Source: Tetmemena sp. SeJ-2015 (Eukaryota > Ciliophora > Spirotrichea > Sporadotrichida > Oxytrichidae). From it: DNA of 64,000 nt. This document shows positions 47,701 to 59,300 of this stretch, piece after piece. Numbering within the stretch: position 1 is the first letter of the stretch; each line of letters opens with the position of its first letter. The notes under the pieces were generated by a model that saw nothing but the letters and a program-made list of their open reading frames with translations, searched no databases and had not been told where the DNA came from. Location of the stretch: positions 1 to 64,000 of the forward strand of contig JAJKFJ010022920.1 in assembly GCA_027382625.1 (NCBI GenBank), given 5' to 3'. The position numbers and the translations under genes were made by a program.

Positions 47701-48912
47701 GAACTCTTCTCAAGAGAACGCTCTAAGGAAGGAGGTTGAAATGTAGAAGATAGTTATCCAGAGGTAAAATATACTTTATCCATCCATTCTTACTATACTT
47801 GTAGACTGAAGAAAGAGAGTACGGAGAAGGACTATTACTTGACTCAGCTAAAAAAAGTGATACAAGACAACTAGGAGAAAAGTTAGCTGCTAAATTCTAT
47901 CATGACTTTTGAGAAGGAGCGACTTCAGTATCAAGAGGAGTAGGAGTCTATCAAAGCTAGGCTCCAAAATATGCCCTAAGACTTGGCGAAAAGGCAGGAA
48001 GAGTTAGATGAAAAGACAAGAGAGGTGAATTAACTTACTGAGAAGGAGAGATATTTGCTGACTGAGATTGATGAACTCAGAGGTCTACTTCAAAACCATA
48101 GCTCTGTTAAGTAACTTGAGAGCACAATTTCTCAACTCTCATCTATACTCTTATCCTCAAGTGTAAGCATAAGTTATGTCGAAGCTTATTTATAGACTGG
48201 ACTAAAGCTAACAGATAATCAGATGAGGTAGCTGATCTACATTTTCAATTTCAAAGAGCAGACAACAAGAGTAAAGAAGCAGCTGTAGAAGGAGTTCGAA
48301 GAGTCTGGGCAAGTTCTTGAGGATTTCAATAGCATTCTTGAGTACGCATTAAATTACCTCCCTCAAGACTCTTACTTAACGAGTTGGAAGGATAAGCTCA
48401 GGAGCTAGATATTCTCTAGAGAGAAGAAGTATAAGGTAAGCTCGATACTTTTAGCTCTTGAACTTTTTTAGAACTTGGAAAAGAACTTGAAGCAATGGGG
48501 AGGCTCTGAAACCTCTAAAATAGACGCACATGGGTTCAATAGCACAACGAAAAGCGTATTTGAAGATGATCCGACGGCCAATCTCTATGAAGAATTTTCC
48601 CACATTTCAAGCAATTAAAAACACACACACAACTCACTTACTTAAATTTAAAGCATGAAGAAATTCCCGAAGCCGTTCACAATCATGAGCTAGACTTAAA
48701 GCATTCACGATCTTACGCTTAGTGATATCTCAAAGAGCAGGAAGAAGTCAAGCAGCAAATCTAAGAAGAGATAGAAACCTCCCCTTAACAACAATCATTA
48801 GAATGGTTACCAAGAGCAAACTCTGATTCATAGAATTGATATAGAGGACAAGCAGATGCTATCTTTAAATTTTAGTGAAGGCAAGCTTCAAAATTTGAAG
48901 AGAATAGAATGA
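44786..48912 (+). CDS. Long coiled-coil protein
   Basis: Starts MMENLTATFKDESQKQAALQ. The N-terminal third is Gln/Asn-rich. From about 46980 to 48600 it is a long heptad-type coiled coil (TIAEQNQKSLKSKYQKTLND, KNLLELESELKASNSLMKQI, KERYLLTEIDELRGLLQNHS) with a globular insertion (KVSSILLALELFQNLEKNLK). The tail is basic (KKFPKPFTIMSQ, SKSRKKSSSKSKKRQK) and ends at TGA 48910-48912, directly in a TGAT tandem repeat. Several frame breaks between 45000 and 46470 are unresolved; a second start at 46017 (MSERNNQPALSQG) leaves two genes possible. It is likely a cytoskeletal or ciliary scaffold by composition only. Confidence 0.55.
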
Positions 48913-48933
48913 TTGATTGATTGATTGATTGAT
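48910..48933 (+). repeat. TGAT tandem repeat
   Basis: About five perfect TGAT units begin at the stop codon of the coiled-coil gene. In a code where only TGA stops, this gives tandem stops in more than one frame. Confidence 0.7.
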
Positions 48934-49036
48934 AAGACGCCGCTCGTGAGAAATAATTATCGTACTTAATTTTTGAATCAATTAAATATCAAGTTCATAG
49001 CTCATCATATATCATTACAATTTTAAAGTGGGACCA

Positions 49037-50075: not shown

Positions 50076-50410
50076 TCCTTCTTTCTAAATTATAATTATC
50101 GATTTAATCTCAAGAGAAAATCTATTCTTTTAGAATTTATTTAAGGTTTTAGAAAAGCTCATGGAGCAAACTAAGCAAAGATTGAATGAATATTTTTGTC
50201 TGATCATCAGTTATAAACTTTTAATATTACTCACTTAAATAGAACTTTTTCATTAAGTTCGGAATGAAGAAGACTCTATAAGAATTGTTTCAAGATCAAT
50301 GCTGATTTATCCGATGAACTCTCTTGATGGGTATTCATTTTAACTTAAAGAAGGGAGACACCAATAAAAGTCAAGTTAAACCAAAAGTCAGGTCCAAGAT
50401 AAATTGGCTT

Positions 50411-50939
50411 TCATTTAATGGGAGTCACTTGCCTCAGCTACAACTTATCAATATAATGGTAATTGATAGATTGCACTGGAAGTGACGATACAACTTGGAA
50501 ACTATGGACAGCTTATAAGCATGCTATCTGTGTTAAAGAGGTGATCTACTTGCCACTTGCTCAGGGGATGGCACTGTCAAGGTCTGGGACTTCTTTTCAT
50601 CTAAGTTGATTTCCATGAGAGTGGGGACTTCTTGAACACCTAATAAATAATCTGAGTTATAAGAGCAAGTATACTTTCAGAGGACACGTGGACTCTGTCA
50701 ACTCCATTCAGTTCTAACCCTACTCCTTGCAAAGAAGCATATTTTATAACCATCATCTTTGGGATATCAGGACCAATCTCTGCGTCCAGACTTTCTTACG
50801 CTTCTATTGAGAAGACAAAATTATTCATTTACTTATCAGTGCAGTTTAACTTGAGAGTAAGGAATATAAATCTTAAACAAATTTCATTATAGGGAGATAC
50901 TATTGCCTCAGCTGACTGCGATGGAATCACTAAGATTTG
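50411..50939 (+). CDS. Even-numbered MDSs of scrambled SPAG16/PF20-like WD40 gene
   Basis: On its own this stretch gives only WD40 fragments: TGSDDTTWKLWT, GDLLATCSGDGTVKVWDF, HESGDFLNT, KYTFRGHVDSVNSIQF, RTNLCVQTF and GDTIASADCDGITKI. Each fragment is bounded by a short sequence that recurs at 53.2-55.2 kb. Segments and their bounding pointers: 50475-50511 (ACTGGAAGT, TATGGACAG), 50537-50592 (AGAGGTGA, TGGGACTT), 50609-50648 (ATTTCC, AATAAAT), 50666-50727 (CAAG, CTCCT), 50757-50796 (CTTTGGGATATCA, CAGACTTTCT) and 50836-50939 (TCAGTGCAGTTT, ACTAAGATTTG). A first segment begins at TCATTTA 50411-50417. The last contains a normal GTAAGG...TATAG intron at 50857-50892. Spacers are AT-rich and 16-39 bp long. 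Confidence 0.85.
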
Positions 50940-51410
50940 CTTCTCAATAGGGAAATTGGATTGAATTGATAGGTTCATTATGTAATTCAAAGTCTCTGGC
51001 ATTAAGATCGACAAAATATTCTTATAACTTTAACATAAACTGTTAATATTCTTATTTAATTGATGTCCATTGAGATGGGATTATGCTTTTTGTACTTGGA
51101 GAGAGGTCAATCAATAATTATAGATGTGTAAATATTGCTCTTACCTCAGGCTTATCATTGTTCTACTAAAAACATTATTCCTTATTTCTATCTTGACTGT
51201 CGATAGGACGAATAGAGAGAAGATTTATAATAAACCCATCATCATTATTATCTTCATAGATGAAAACTCACATAGCTTTCTTCTCAAAAACTTATAAGAT
51301 CAAAAGCTGTCTAGCACTTACGATTCATAAATAAATAATGTTTTAAATTCTGTTAGTCATCAGGTATTTAATTCCTCTGAGTGAAGCTCTGCTTAGAGAG
51401 TCTCTCCATG

Positions 51411-52195
51411 TCATTTCAAGAGAGTGTCCATCTTACTCGACTCTAAAGCAAGGCTGTTAGTATTTAGAGAGAACTTATTCAAGTTAGAAGTTATAACAAA
51501 TGAGATTAGCACTTCTATCTTGTTTCCATAAGTGTAATTGTACAAACTGTCATAATTATTGCAGATTAGCATCCATTAAATAATGATTATGATGTGCTCA
51601 GCCCATTTATGATGTCATTCTTTATTTGAATCTCCTTTTACACTTGCATGACAGGATGGGGACTTCCAAAGAGTGGCCTCACTTTTACTAAGGGTTACTT
51701 GGCAGGTGTGAAGTACTCCTTATAGTAGGGTGTATTGTAGTAAAACTAAGGAGATAAAGGGAGCACTGGCTCAAGGAGTATCTTAAACTGGAGGTGGCTC
51801 AATCACCCTCGACACTATCTTAGGCCGGTTCACAATATAATTCAAGAATTAGAGAAAAAGAATATATATGAAACGCTCTATTTATCCTTCATCATCGACA
51901 GGGTCATAATATTTGCTGCTCTATTTGTATCGTTCATTTGCAGCTATAGATAATTGCTTTGCATCTGATAAGAACGTTTGATCTCATCCAATCACTGCTT
52001 AAACTCTGACTCTCAAAAAATATTGAAATTTTCTCTACTAGGCTTTTAAAATCTCTCCTGTTGCCAATTTATTAAAAAGAAGGAAGTATCTTACTTTGTT
52101 CAATTCAGCTGGATTTCTGTATTTTTTAATCTACTAGTATCATTTAAACTTTTCCTGAGATCCACTTTGTCATACACATCAGTCTTCAGACTCAT
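51411..52195 (-). CDS. Unknown protein lying inside the scrambled locus
   Basis: Starts MSLKTDVYDKVDLRKSLNDT at 52195. It continues in pieces: DEIKRSYQMQSNYLQLQMND, KIVSRVIEPPPVQDTP, FYYNTPYYKEYFTPAKQPLV, VRPLFGSPHPVMQV and YNYTYGNKIEVLISFVITSN, with the final helix LALESSKMDTLLK before TGA 51411-51413. The frame changes between pieces suggest three or four IESs. The N-terminal half looks like a coiled coil and the C-terminal half like a beta domain. No family was recognised. Confidence 0.5.
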
Positions 52196-52219
52196 TAATT
52201 TTTAATCTTATTTATAATT

Positions 52220-53209
52220 ATGCAAGGATTTAATTGTACTTTGAGAGAATAGCTTAATTAATCCTCAGTGATCATAAATTATGAAAATGAGAAAGTGACA
52301 TGTGAAGCATTTTAACTAAATGAAATAAGACCTCCTAACTTCAAAGCTTTTGTTCCTCTTCTCAAAATATTTTGCAAATCATCTACACAGTCTTCAACAA
52401 GGGCCGCTGTTAGAATTAAATCATTGTAATAATTGAGACTTAGATCGAAGGCGATGGAAATGGCTATCCACTAACTCCAGATGATGAGCTGGAGAAAACT
52501 ATGGGATCTATGTGGGCCACTAAATAAGGCCTCAAGCCTATTCATTTTATATATTTCGATGCCTCTTTTCTGCGATCACTTAGATTGATCAATCATTTTA
52601 AGTTACCCATCTATGTCACTCCCACATTTGTGCAACGTCTCGGCAGCGAAGAAGACTTGTTTGAGTAGCTAAATAGAGTGCAGACGATGACAGTTTGGAT
52701 CAGAATCTATCATGGAAATGAAGAAAACCAATTAAAACCCACTCTATATAATGAAATGAATGTTTCGTCTCTGTAAGTTATCATTTTAGTATTTATGAAT
52801 TATTTAGCACCTCTATGGGTATCCGCAGATACATGACTTCGATTTTTTGATTAATGGCAGCCAACAAGAGTTGCTTTCAGTCTTCAATAACAATGGAAAT
52901 TATTTTTACATCTCAGAGGGAGGAGTTTGCTTCTTTGCGAATTATGAATACTTAGAAGAATAGGAATAATTAGCTGCTACTAACTAGGGCTACCCTCAAG
53001 ATTGCTTTCGCTCTTAGTTTAATCTACAGCTTAAGGCTCTACGATGGACCGATCATTATTCATCTTTCCTAAAAGCTTAATCATAGATCCAAGATCAAGA
53101 AGCAAGAAAAGGGTATTTAAACTGTAAAACTTTGAAATCCCCATTCAATTAGATTCTACAATTTTAATTTGGAGAAAGCAAGGGTGTATAAGTTTAATTT
53201 ATAATTTGA
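52220..53209 (+). CDS. Unknown protein, divergent partner inside the scrambled locus
   Basis: Starts MQGFNCTLREQLNQSSVIIN at 52220. Then come NEIRPPNFKAFVPLLKIF, IIYTVFNKGRCQNQIIVIIE, PLTPDDELEKTMGSMWATKQ, LPIYVTPTFVQRLGSEEDLF, GSQQELLSVFNNNGNYFYIS and SFLKAQSQIQDQEARKG. Frame breaks lie near 52370 and 52780. TGA is at 53207-53209, one base before the ATG of the WD40 gene, so the true end may be slightly earlier. Its start is 24 bp from the divergent gene's start. No family was recognised. Confidence 0.5.
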
Positions 53210-53210
53210 A

Positions 53211-55198
53211 ATGGAAGGAGGAGCAGAGCACGATTTCCTAAACGATAACGCCGAAGAGAGCCCAGATCAAAATCAATACGCCCTTGAAGGTAAAAACTTA
53301 CAAGCCACAGCATCAAACTTTGAACTGCGCAATTATTCTAGAAACTATGCGTTACTTACTTTAAATATAGAGGTTGAACTAACTGAAGACAGTAAAGGGG
53401 AGTTCAGCTATAAGGAGGTTAGTGACATCAGCGATATCACAGAGGAATCTTACCCCGATGGCATGTCTCAGTATGGAGCGGGCGCTAAAGATCTTGAAAA
53501 CTATGAAAAGCTCATTTGAAGAAAAAAAGATTGAAGATCCTGGAGGGTAAGCTTAAATCACTCATTCATCACTCTTGAATTTAGATGACTAGACTTCAGT
53601 TGCTATAACTTTAATCATCATCGCATTTAATTTGAATTGATTATAGCACCCGACTGGAGCACTCAGACGAATTCCTAAGGAACTTTTTCATTTGAAATTT
53701 AATCTTCAACCTACAATTTTAAGGAAGACTCTAGACTCTTTCCAGCAAGAATGGTTTGAGCTCAAGGCAAAAGGACAACTAAACATTGAAAAGATGCCCG
53801 CTCTCCCAGAGATCTACAAGATCAACATTTGCATCATTTATGATGATGACTTGAAATTATTGGGGAACTCTCCGCCCTTCAGTAAGAGTTAGATGAGGCG
53901 CGCATCACTGCAGAGAAAGCAAGATCTACTTATGATAAGCTGCGCAAGCAAAGAGACTTCTAGAAGATCAACCACAGGCGAGTGCAGCAAGAGAAGTAGA
54001 AGCTGAATTCGGATATTGGCAAGCTAAAAAAGACCTATGAGCAGTATTAGGAGCAGTTTAAGAATCTTTCTGGTAATTACGAGACTGCTGTCAAAGAGAA
54101 GATGCTCATGAAGCTTGAAAAAGACCGTCTGTATGCGAAAGTAGAGAACCTGGAAAATAACCTCAGACAGATAGAGGAGAATCAAGTACTCGAGAAGAAA
54201 GAGAAGGACGAAATTTAGAAGAGACTTGAGGCAGAAGAAGAAGGGAGAAATAGTGAAACCAAAGGGCAATCCATCTGTCATACCTGCTAAGGATAAGCCT
54301 AATCCAAACCTATAGGAGATATTCGAACCCATCAATTTTTAAAAAATTAAGAGGTAACTTATGATTAATTCACATCTCTCTATGCAAAAGACTTTAAGGG
54401 TCATTTATTGGTGCATGGAAATAGAGGAGCTACAATCCTAAGAAAGCAATTATCGCAACTGGAAGTTCAAGAAATATGGACAGTCCCCAACGGAGATTTA
54501 ATAATGAGTGGAGAAGGTCATTTAGACTGGATTGGTGGCTTAGCTTTTAGTCCTAGAGGTGAAATAAAGCAAAAAATTGTAAAAATATGGGACTTTGTAA
54601 ATGCTAGTTGCGCTTATCCTTTAGGACGGTAACCTGTTTAAATTATTTCCCATTAATTTTTTTAAACTTTTTATATTTTTTTGGGAAGCAATAAATTTGG
54701 GGGATTTAAATGGCCAAGGAAAAAAAAAATTTTTTTTCCTTTTTATTCTAACCCTCTCCTGTATGTTCGTGAGTGGAGCAGGAGACAAGACAGTCTCACT
54801 TTGGGATATCATTAGAAATAAATATCAGACTTTCTACGGTCACAACAATGCAGTCAACTCAGTGCAGTTTTTTGAATCCTTTCTAACTAAGATTTGGGAC
54901 GCGAGGATGGTGAGAGACTTCAGCAGTTTGACAGTGGCTTGCCCTCTGCAAACAAAGCAATTTTGATAAGAGCAACACTTATGTACTCGTGGCAAGTGAA
55001 GATGCAACCGTCAAAGTGTAAGTGCAATATAATAAGCCACAATTTTTAATCACTTTTAGTTTCAATATGCAGAGCAAAGAGAAGGAAGCCGAGTTAAAGG
55101 GCCACGAGGATGCAGTGCTGGATCTAACCTTCGACAGTGGCAGAGATGGTTACTTAGTATCTGCAAGTTCAGATTGCTCCTTCAGAGTCTGGCAGTGA
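53211..55198 (+). CDS. Odd-numbered MDSs of scrambled SPAG16/PF20-like WD40 gene
   Basis: N-terminus MEGGAEHDFLNDNAEESPDQ, a central coiled coil (NLSGNYETAVKEKMLMKLEK, LYAKVENLENNLRQIEENQ) and a C-terminal WD40 array, as in SPAG16/PF20, a protein of the axonemal central apparatus. WD40 pieces here: IWTVPNGDLIMSGEGHLDWI, SGAGDKTVSLWDI, YGHNNAVNSVQF, KIWDARMVRDF, VASEDATVKVFNMQ and GYLVSASSDCSFRVWQ. Missing parts are supplied by 50411-50939. Pointers here: TCATTTA 54401-54407, ACTGGAAGT 54458-54466, TATGGACAG 54475-54483, AGAGGTGA 54555-54562, TGGGACTT 54588-54595, ATTTCC 54645-54650, AATAAAT 54690-54696, CAAG 54715-54718, CTCCT 54756-54760, CTTTGGGATATCA 54799-54811, CAGACTTTCT 54826-54835, TCAGTGCAGTTT 54859-54870, ACTAAGATTTG 54886-54896. 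An intron lies at 55018-55059. TGA is at 55196-55198. Confidence 0.85.
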
Positions 55199-55363
55199 CC
55201 ACAAACCACCACTATCTCTTTTAGGCTTTAATTATAGTTTAAGCTATTTTTATTTAACTTTCTTCTAATCAAATTCTTAAACTCTAAAGCACTAAGCTAC
55301 TACTATTACTACTATTATTATAAACTCTTATAATTATATTAAAAATTAATAGGAGTCTAAAAA

Positions 55364-56396: not shown

Positions 56397-59300
56397 ATGA
56401 GCGATGTAGCCCAGCTAGACAACATAAATGACTTTCATTCGCATCTCACAGATTAGACCAAGGCCATTCAGAGAGATTTCTCAAGTAAATACTAAAGCGC
56501 TAATTTAGAAATGCTTTTATTTTATCAATTGTCTCTAATGAAGATATGCTTATAGAGTCAACAGCTGATTTAATGAGTCTGAAATTAAATCTCAATAATT
56601 ATTATCTTTATCAGGAAAAGTTTCAGAGATAGGAATACAAATGCACATCTCGACTTCAAACAAGTCAGCTACGGAAATCCACAAAGTATAAAATTATGAA
56701 TGCGTAACAAAGTAATCCAGGAAAGAAGGGTCTAGGAAAATTGGGTTTCAAATTTAAAAGCCAAACTGGGTCAGTTAAAGCGTACTACCTTTAAGAAGTA
56801 AGAAGAGAATAAGTCTAAAGGAAATTTGAGATTTCCTTTCTTCATTTAGGTTTGACTTTATACTGATGAATTAGAGTTTTACAAGTATAACTTTTATAGA
56901 AAGCTTACCTCCCATCGAAAAGAAACACTATGATAGAGAGTCAGATTATAAGTAATGAGGAATAGGTAATTTACTCTAATAAATGCAAAGGTTCAGAGGA
57001 GATGTGGCAAATTAACTTCTAGCTAATCATAGGTTAACTGATGATGAGGGTTACTAATTTCCACGTTAGCAAAGACAACCCTAATCCTTTAATTAATATG
57101 AAGTATATATATACTCAAGAAGTCTTAAATGTTGGTTCCACCTCCTGTAGTAATCGACCCCAAAGCATATCAGAATTATGAGCCTGTCTTATATCAAATC
57201 CAACAGATAAAAGCAATTTAGCTGAGCACAGAAATAAAGAAAGTCAAGAATTATGAAGAATTATTGCAAAGTCTCTTAATTTTATTATAATAAAGGAAAC
57301 TTACTATGAGAAATAGAGAAGTATAGTTTAAAGGCCTATAACAATTTGAAGAATATATTTGCAGTGATTAGCTCTAAAAGATTAAGATTTTATAATAATT
57401 TAAATGGAATTTAATTCGATAGCCACTCCACGAACTTCTAAAAGCCTAGTTTAAATGCAAATTAGGTCTTGCTTTTGCTGGAAGCCAGATGATGTTCAGA
57501 AATATCAATGACATTCACAAGTCTTGAAATTATAAAGACTCAATTTCTACTTTCCTATCAGATTAATTTTGAGAAGAAGTACAGGAGTGTGTCAAGGGGC
57601 AGCAATAAATCTTCTCTGCATAGATTATTCAAATGGCAAGATAGAAATGGCTTGCTGAGGTAAATACTTTAAAATAATTGACCAATTTTCTATAGAACAA
57701 TCTCGAATATAAACTTATTAATTGAGCAATAATTGATGAGTCAGTTGGTCCTCTCTCAAAATAAATGACTTCAATATGCTAATACTATCTCAATGGACAC
57801 TTAGATCCACGATTTGAAGAACTTCTTCGTGTCGAACAATCCCAACATAGATAGACCCTTCCACTACTACGCTTCAGGCAATTAAACTTTGAACCTTAAT
57901 AAATAGCTTTATAAGATTTAAGAAATGCATTCTTAAGATCTGGTTTACTACAATTAGCCATTTGAGAACCGAGTAGACGAGGTGATAAGGTTATCAGTGG
58001 ACTTTGACGAGATATGGGAGCGAGGTTCTCGCTTACTGGACGAGGTGAAATAGACCTTCCTCTCTTTCAAAGATCAGGTCAACAAAGCTTCAAACTTACA
58101 GCAGATGCCTACTCTCCCAGTCCACTTCATGCCCTGGGCCTCTGATGTTCAAATAGACATGAAGCTCAAGCAATTTGAAGTTATCAAAGAAGATCTACAG
58201 CGCTTCCTGGCCAGGATCCCCAAGCATACTATGATGCACAAGCTCAGGAATCAAATGCTCAAGGATCTGCAAAAGTACAAATACGAGATAGAGAGAATAA
58301 AACCTTTTCATCTTACTGTTTAGTGATCATAGGAAGCCAATATACCCGCCTGCTCTTATCAATGAAATAAGTAAGGGTATTAGAGTTTTTGTTCACACTC
58401 AGTAGAATAATCCCGTGAAAATGCCAAGGTATAATGCTCTTAATGGGGTTAGAATATGCTTCGATTATATAATCAACATCCTTAAGTACGAATACTCACA
58501 CATGCAAATCAAACTTAGACAGTAGTCTAACTTTATTAAGGGCCGTTGCTTTGTGGATCCCTAGCTTACGAGGATCTATGAGGTAGTGAACTATCATCAT
58601 GGACCCAAGAAATTTGGACAGGCAGTTTTCAATGAACCCTCATTAATTATAGAAGAGCTATATGCTGAGCCTGACTCTTTTTTAGTGTTGGAGATTCTTG
58701 GAAAGCCTTGCAACCCAAAGAAACTATTCATTGAGACTTCTCATCTAGAGCAAGCCTATCGGATGGACTGCTATGCCTTTGTAAATTTATGCTTGGATTT
58801 GCAGAGAGGCCATTTTAAGTTTGTGTGAGTTATTTACTTTCAGAACGATGGGAAAATCAATTCATGACTCATCCCTCGCTCTCTGTAATAATTATAGGTA
58901 ACTATTGTTTGAAATTACTTCGATTACAAGGACCACGAGTCTATCTCTAAAAGAGATCCTACCTACAAGTGCACTGGATTCCACGTGTTTATCCATTTTA
59001 CTCGCGGGCACGCCCCAGTCAGGCCAACTATTAACATCAACATACTAAAGATAAGCTTCTCGTTTCTAACTTCTTCAATTTGGAAGGCATATCATCAAAC
59101 ACTCCGAGGGAGAGAAGTAAGTATTATCATTTTATCTTTGCGACAGCGGGTATTAACCCGCCCAGAAAGAAGAAATAGAAGAAGCTTAAGCCTGGTGAAG
59201 AGCCAGTACCTGAACCTGAATTCGATCGTAAGCAACGTCTTTACTCTTATCTGTCTCTATAGCTGCTAATAATCTCTATTTTCAATAGGTGATCCCTCAA

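Follow-up and report, generated by a model that had tools for sequence, protein, structure and literature searches.

Can one gene be laid out in two separate loci, neither of which can be read on its own? The question is raised by a 64,000-nucleotide stretch of contig JAJKFJ010022920.1 (positions 1–64,000, hereafter the window; contig C3556 in a 146-Mb assembly of 5213 contigs), in which fragments of a PF20/SPAG16 gene lie in locus A (50152–50939) and locus B (53211–55198), both on the plus strand. Neither locus by itself gives a continuous PF20 frame. On the sequence evidence described below, the two loci very probably constitute one scrambled, likely micronuclear, PF20/SPAG16 gene, whose 21 coding segments alternate between A and B and would be joined at 20 pointers.

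Layout of the PF20 Locus

Two further copies of the locus, on contigs C4225 (clean) and C594, carry the arrangement seen in the window, and the segments and pointers are numbered from these two. All three copies come from the same assembly, and their comparison covers 10 kb fetched per contig. In both C4225 and C594 the gene falls into 21 segments, 11 odd-numbered ones in locus B and 10 even-numbered ones in locus A, and the order B-A-B-A, which a preliminary description of the window had proposed as odd–even alternation, holds across all 20 junctions. A repeat common to both loci is found at each junction (20/20; 7–13 bp in C4225 and 5–14 bp in C594), and the gene parts carried by A and B are complementary and non-overlapping. 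The four junction words spelled out in the preliminary description occur in both loci and follow one another in one and the same order (CTTTGGGATATCA at 50757 and 54799, CAGACTTTCT at 50787 and 54826, TCAGTGCAGTTT at 50836 and 54859, and ACTAAGATTTG at 50929 and 54886), and the WD40 peptides quoted there come out when the reading alternates between A and B. Its count of thirteen junction words is too low: locus A begins at 50152 rather than at 50411, and the six pointers upstream of 50411 had been missed. Its spacing of 2.3 kb between the loci applies only between the end of A at 50939 and the start of the gene at 53211. The macronuclear-destined segments (MDSs), with introns and conventional internally eliminated sequences (IESs), are placed in the window as follows.

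MDS 1: 53211–53515, plus strand, locus B; predicted start codon; intron 1 at 53290–53370
MDS 2: 50152–50186, plus strand, locus A; includes pointers 1 GAAAAGCTCAT and 2 AAAGATTGAA
MDS 3: 53526–53692, plus strand, locus B; conventional IES at about 53546–53659, repeat CTGGAG, bounds inferred from frame
MDS 4: 50242–50278, plus strand, locus A; pointers GAACTTTTTCATT and GAAGACTCTA
MDS 5: 53724–53825, plus strand, locus B
MDS 6: 50291–50323, plus strand, locus A; pointers CAAGATCAA and GAACTCTC
MDS 7: 53865–54407, plus strand, locus B; conventional IES at about 54339–54371, repeat AATTC, bounds inferred from frame and homologue P0003
MDS 8: 50411–50443, plus strand, locus A; pointers TCATTTA and AGCTACAA
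MDS 9: 54428–54466, plus strand, locus B
MDS 10: 50475–50511, plus strand, locus A; pointers ACTGGAAGT and TATGGACAG
MDS 11: 54475–54562, plus strand, locus B
MDS 12: 50537–50592, plus strand, locus A; pointers AGAGGTGA and TGGGACTT
MDS 13, spacer, MDS 15, spacer: 54588–54755, plus strand, locus B; corrupted in the window, readable only in C4225 and C594
MDS 14: 50603–50635, plus strand, locus A; pointers AAGTTGATTTC and GACTTCTTGA, B copies lost in the window and present in C4225
MDS 16: 50661–50727, plus strand, locus A; pointers AAGAGCAA and ACCCTACTCCT
MDS 17: 54756–54811, plus strand, locus B; begins at CTCCT, the remnant of pointer 16
MDS 18: 50757–50796, plus strand, locus A; pointers CTTTGGGATATCA and CAGACTTTCT
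MDS 19: 54826–54870, plus strand, locus B
MDS 20: 50836–50939, plus strand, locus A; pointers TCAGTGCAGTT and ACTAAGATTTG; 36-bp GT-AG intron at 50857–50892; site of the C594 insert at about 50899/50900
MDS 21: 54886–55198, plus strand, locus B; ends at the TGA stop; intron 3 at about 55018–55059

The shared words exceed what shuffled sequence provides. In the window, ordered words of at least 8 bp sum to 98 nt and words of at least 7 bp to 140 nt, whereas 300 dinucleotide shuffles gave means of 44.5 and 79.6 nt and maxima of 75 and 110 nt, respectively. The chain in C4225, whose words may differ from the 20 pointers, comprises 21 words and 204 nt, against a mean of 79.8 and a maximum of 117 in 500 shuffles. 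A whole-window scan with words of at least 9 bp barely separates the PF20 chain, with a score of 21, from the maximum of 20 in 40 shuffles, because the window copy is corrupted.

The corruption affects about 54555–54900 of locus B, a stretch that is clean in C4225 and C594 and in which long A and T runs replace coding sequence in the window. Relative to C4225, the bin 54500–54749 has 52 substitutions, 31 missing bases, and 2 extra ones, and the bin 54750–54999 has 11 substitutions, 4 missing bases, and none extra; outside 54000–55249, every 250-bp bin shows at most 6 differences. As a consequence, pointers 13, 14, and 15 have lost their B copies and pointer 16 is cut to CTCCT. Two local readings were rejected here. 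The window word TTCTAACCCT, if used as a junction, disrupts the frame, and both clean copies read differently at this place; the actual junction there uses ACCCTACTCCT in C4225 but CTCCT in C594. Taken as one coding stretch, locus B between DFVNA and SKYTF would contain a TGA in frame in C4225. Two more pointers, AAGTTGATTTC and GACTTCTTGA, enclose a spacer within this stretch; the apparent TGA then belongs to the spacer, and across this region the joined reading loses the stop and resembles homologue P0003.

A corrupted stretch within locus B is what one might expect if reads of a normal gene had been shuffled into two loci during assembly. The same arrangement, however, is present on two more contigs, one of them 6–8% diverged (all from one assembly), and the spacers differ between copies like unconstrained DNA, which makes an assembly artifact exceedingly unlikely.

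The Predicted Joined Gene and Its Product

Under genetic code table 6 (TAA and TAG as glutamine, TGA as stop), the joined PF20 frame is open in both clean copies. In C4225 it comprises 1782 nt and 593 amino acids, and the C594 version has the same length once its 414-bp insert is set aside. The reading leaves out three GT-AG introns and the two conventional IESs with the repeats CTGGAG and AATTC. The introns total 166 nt in C4225, so that the macronuclear gene would measure about 1.95 kb from start codon to stop. An intron was also considered for the second gap in MDS 3 and rejected, as it does not keep the frame; the CTGGAG-bounded IES does.

The corrected 593-residue protein was used for searches of Pfam and of solved structures. 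It matches Chlamydomonas Pf20 (7n61; E = 3.5e-139) in two blocks, an N-terminal region and a WD40 domain, and solved SPAG16 (9ijj; E = 4.2e-105); the aligned parts of the query are residues 31–239 for the N-terminal region and 282–592 for the WD40 domain, and Pfam finds WD40 in 6 stretches. The predicted product is a PF20/SPAG16-type protein, with a PF20-type N-terminal region and C-terminal WD40, in agreement with the identity first proposed for it, and homology points to a putative axonemal function. The same protein regions are found in 7n61 and 9ijj, and it is the scrambled germline structure that sets the present locus apart from these two.

The order of segments in the joined protein is also that of its homologues. 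Six relatives, out of 120 listed from 959 at E ≤0.001, were aligned over the junctions and are collinear with it, as judged by how many of the 20 junctions are covered and how many are ungapped within 3 residues (the queries for this search and for that of the assembly itself, taken from the C594 version, still held a wrong spacer-derived stretch).

P0001: 20 covered, 19 ungapped; alignment begins at residue 38
P0002: 16 covered, 15 ungapped
P0003: 15 covered, 15 ungapped
P0005: 19 covered, 19 ungapped
P0008: 20 covered, 20 ungapped
P0009: 20 covered, 19 ungapped

The longest contigs behind P0001–P0003 measure 1.7–2.2 kb, which would fit nanochromosomes. A search of the present assembly with the 293-residue WD40 part found no contig with the joined gene, and the only close matches were C3556, C4225, and C594. 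A PF20-like paralogue in linear order is present on C1841 (L013, C1841:44000–53000), with blocks at about 48015–48982 on the minus strand and 39–55% identity per block.

Comparison of the Copies

The window shares 98.8% identity with C4225; C594 aligns to it over two collinear blocks, at 92.4% and 94.1% identity, with an insertion between them. Between the joined frames of C4225 and C594, 55 codons differ, 53 of them synonymously; of the 56 changed bases, 5 lie at first, 2 at second, and 49 at third codon positions, and the 2 nonsynonymous codons compare with 44.6 expected under random change (minimum 35 in 1000 simulations). The joined frame, as reconstructed, is under purifying selection. 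Divergence per site between the two copies varies with the class of sequence.

Coding segments: 3.4% (54/1587)
Scrambled spacers: 11.6% (61/525)
Introns: 12.8% (21/164)
Conventional IESs: 6.8% (10/146)
Flanks: 5.1% (12/237)
Pointer copies: 2.3% (9/390)

These figures bear on whether A and B might be a decayed pair of tandem paralogues, with the intact PF20 gene located elsewhere and the alternation due to chance. A candidate for such a gene exists in the linear-order PF20-like gene on C1841, yet its 39–55% identity per block is too low for it to have given rise to locus A or B. Nor would decayed copies be expected to show 53 of 55 changes synonymous in the joined frame, to have spacers three times as diverged as the coding segments, or to retain parts that complement each other rather than overlap. 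We regard this explanation as barely conceivable. Two separate expressed paralogues, the case that the preliminary description had named as refuting its proposal, do not fit a PF20 frame that is absent from each single locus and, when joined, is under purifying selection.

The pointers themselves vary between copies. Pointer 16 is ACCCTACTCCT (11 bp) in C4225 and CTCCT (5 bp) in C594, pointer 19 is TCAGTGCAGTT (11 bp) and TCAGT (5 bp), respectively, and pointers 3, 4, 6, 10, and 14 differ by 1–2 bp. C4225 and C594 both stop at window position 57506, with their last 107 bp identical to the window, and the two look like haplotypes that form a bubble in the assembly.

Four observations weigh against a single scrambled gene. 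The window itself is not readable through 54555–54900; the bounds of introns and conventional IESs were picked so as to restore the frame; pointers 16 and 19 of C594 are just 5 bp long; and the spacers lack residual similarity to the segments that they replace (z = 1.05, p = 0.175 in C4225 and z = −0.34, p = 0.62 in C594, from alignment scores against shuffles over 16 of 19 pairs, segments 3, 7, and 20 being left out for length or intron).

Proposed Route from Scrambled Locus to Protein

The host is likely a hypotrich ciliate, kin to Stylonychia and Oxytricha, as its protein sequences suggest. An actin encoded in this assembly shares 99% identity with that of Stylonychia lemnae, which bears out the hypotrich reading given at first, and 92% with one of Halteria grandinella; a Bud20-like protein in the window is 67% identical to its Halteria counterpart. 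EukProt matches are 403346209 at 81% and 403358614 at 99%, numbers that resemble those of Oxytricha trifallax. The DNA of the contig is likely micronuclear, that is, germline.

In developing macronuclei of the hypotrich type, spacers are removed and segments are joined at pointers with RNA from the parental soma as a guide (PMC9797194, PMC5940158). Joining of the PF20 segments at the DNA level, which we infer, would follow the same course. As the new macronucleus forms, the 21 segments would be joined at the 20 pointer words, the spacers eliminated, and a single copy of each pointer retained, with RNA copied from the somatic gene of the parent presumably guiding the order of segments; these steps are modeled on hypotrich knowledge. 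The outcome would be one PF20 chromosome, from which the joined gene would be transcribed, its three GT-AG introns spliced out, and TAA and TAG translated as glutamine to give a central-apparatus protein of cilia.

The gene might instead stay scrambled in DNA and be joined only in RNA, by trans-splicing or splicing that reorders exons. The GT-AG introns inside segments do indicate that RNA splicing acts on this gene. The 20 junctions, however, are direct repeats of 5–14 bp kept once in frame, which is the signature of hypotrich DNA pointers (as set out in PMC9797194), and RNA-level joining is very unlikely.

An Insertion in One Copy

C594 alone has a net 414-bp insertion in MDS 20 (L009 6690–7100; window site about 50899/50900), flanked by TA/ATA and with the ends TATAG/CTATA. 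It belongs to a repeat family: a first look gave 3821 candidate copies, of which 40 were scored, yielding 42 matches at 70–100% identity. No copy of the repeat was found in the window. Read in the frame of the gene, the insert brings a TGA, and it must therefore be removed exactly, or else the C594 copy is broken. The insert looks like a nonautonomous transposon turned IES. The nearest precedent is reportedly the precise excision of telomere-bearing transposons in Oxytricha.

C4225 and C594 may, in a tentative reading that we rate slightly below an even chance, be two alleles in one cell that encode the same protein with unlike editing needs, namely 11-bp versus 5-bp pointers 16 and 19 and the insert in MDS 20, with a new IES arising in a scrambled gene. 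As both alleles keep the same protein, the choice of junctions would rest on the parental RNA template and not on pointer length. The copies combine a nearly identical protein with unlike pointer lengths and one insertion that needs exact removal, differences that offer a natural test of pointer repeats versus guide RNAs in specifying junctions.

Relation to Known Scrambled Genes

Odd–even scrambling is already well documented, and PF20/SPAG16 is a new, well supported example of it; a search of openly licensed papers, supplementary gene lists not being searched, brought up no earlier account of scrambling in PF20/SPAG16. The share of genes that are scrambled is 15.6% in O. trifallax, 13.6% in Tetmemena, and 7.3% in Euplotes woodruffi (PMC10901763). 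The locus resembles the odd–even genes of Oxytricha trifallax, Tetmemena sp., and Euplotes woodruffi in its separate odd and even germline clusters, short pointers, and spacers, and in its conventional IESs and introns (Feng et al. 2022, PMC9797194). Those genes were mapped with the macronuclear genome, the usual route being to map it onto the micronuclear one, whereas the 21-piece PF20 gene is resolved from likely germline sequence alone, two diverged copies letting selection vouch for the joined frame.

According to a model in which odd–even loci arise by duplication, a copy of segment n, since decayed, forms the spacer between segments n−1 and n+1 (as outlined in PMC9797194). Spacers without similarity to segments lend this model no support at the PF20 locus, and spacer and segment lengths are uncorrelated (Spearman 0.17 and 0.26 over 19 pairs, −0.10 and −0.08 over 16 pairs). 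In the same source, length correlation and similarity between MDSs and IESs are strong in E. woodruffi and weak in O. trifallax and Tetmemena; at the PF20 locus they were not detected. A recent duplication was accordingly set aside as the origin, there being no spacer–segment likeness in sequence or length, and the scrambling would be old, or of other origin.

Neighboring Sequences

Open frames of a putative other gene, with no Pfam match, lie at about 52200–53200 between A and B; the presence of other open reading frames there recalls the nested, interleaved "Russian doll" loci of Oxytricha (PMC5940158), to which the locus would belong if all segments of another macronuclear chromosome lay between those of PF20. 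At an E-value threshold of 0.01, Pfam gave no match for 4 of the 5 proteins submitted, the fifth being PF20, and neither a tRNA scan (ARAGORN, bacterial code) nor Rfam gave a match over the window. An actin gene on C2293 (L025, C2293:48404–52513) is a single open frame, unscrambled, with a coding part devoid of IESs, and may or may not be actin I, which in Stylonychia and Oxytricha is a scrambled gene (PMC2394655).

The window also contains an inverted chain of seven words of 9–13 bp, in the same order at 51064–51492 on the minus strand and 57433–57799 on the plus strand. Its score of 28 in the whole-window scan was reached by 1 of 40 shuffles, and the remaining chains are weaker. The chain is only suggestive, and may mark another scrambled gene, inverted and interleaved with PF20. 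Read in one alternation, it yields an open frame that runs for about 90 amino acids to a TGA, and between copies the predicted A segments of this chain differ at 0/80, 0/20, and 7/123 sites and the spacers at 5/18, 2/49, and 5/62.

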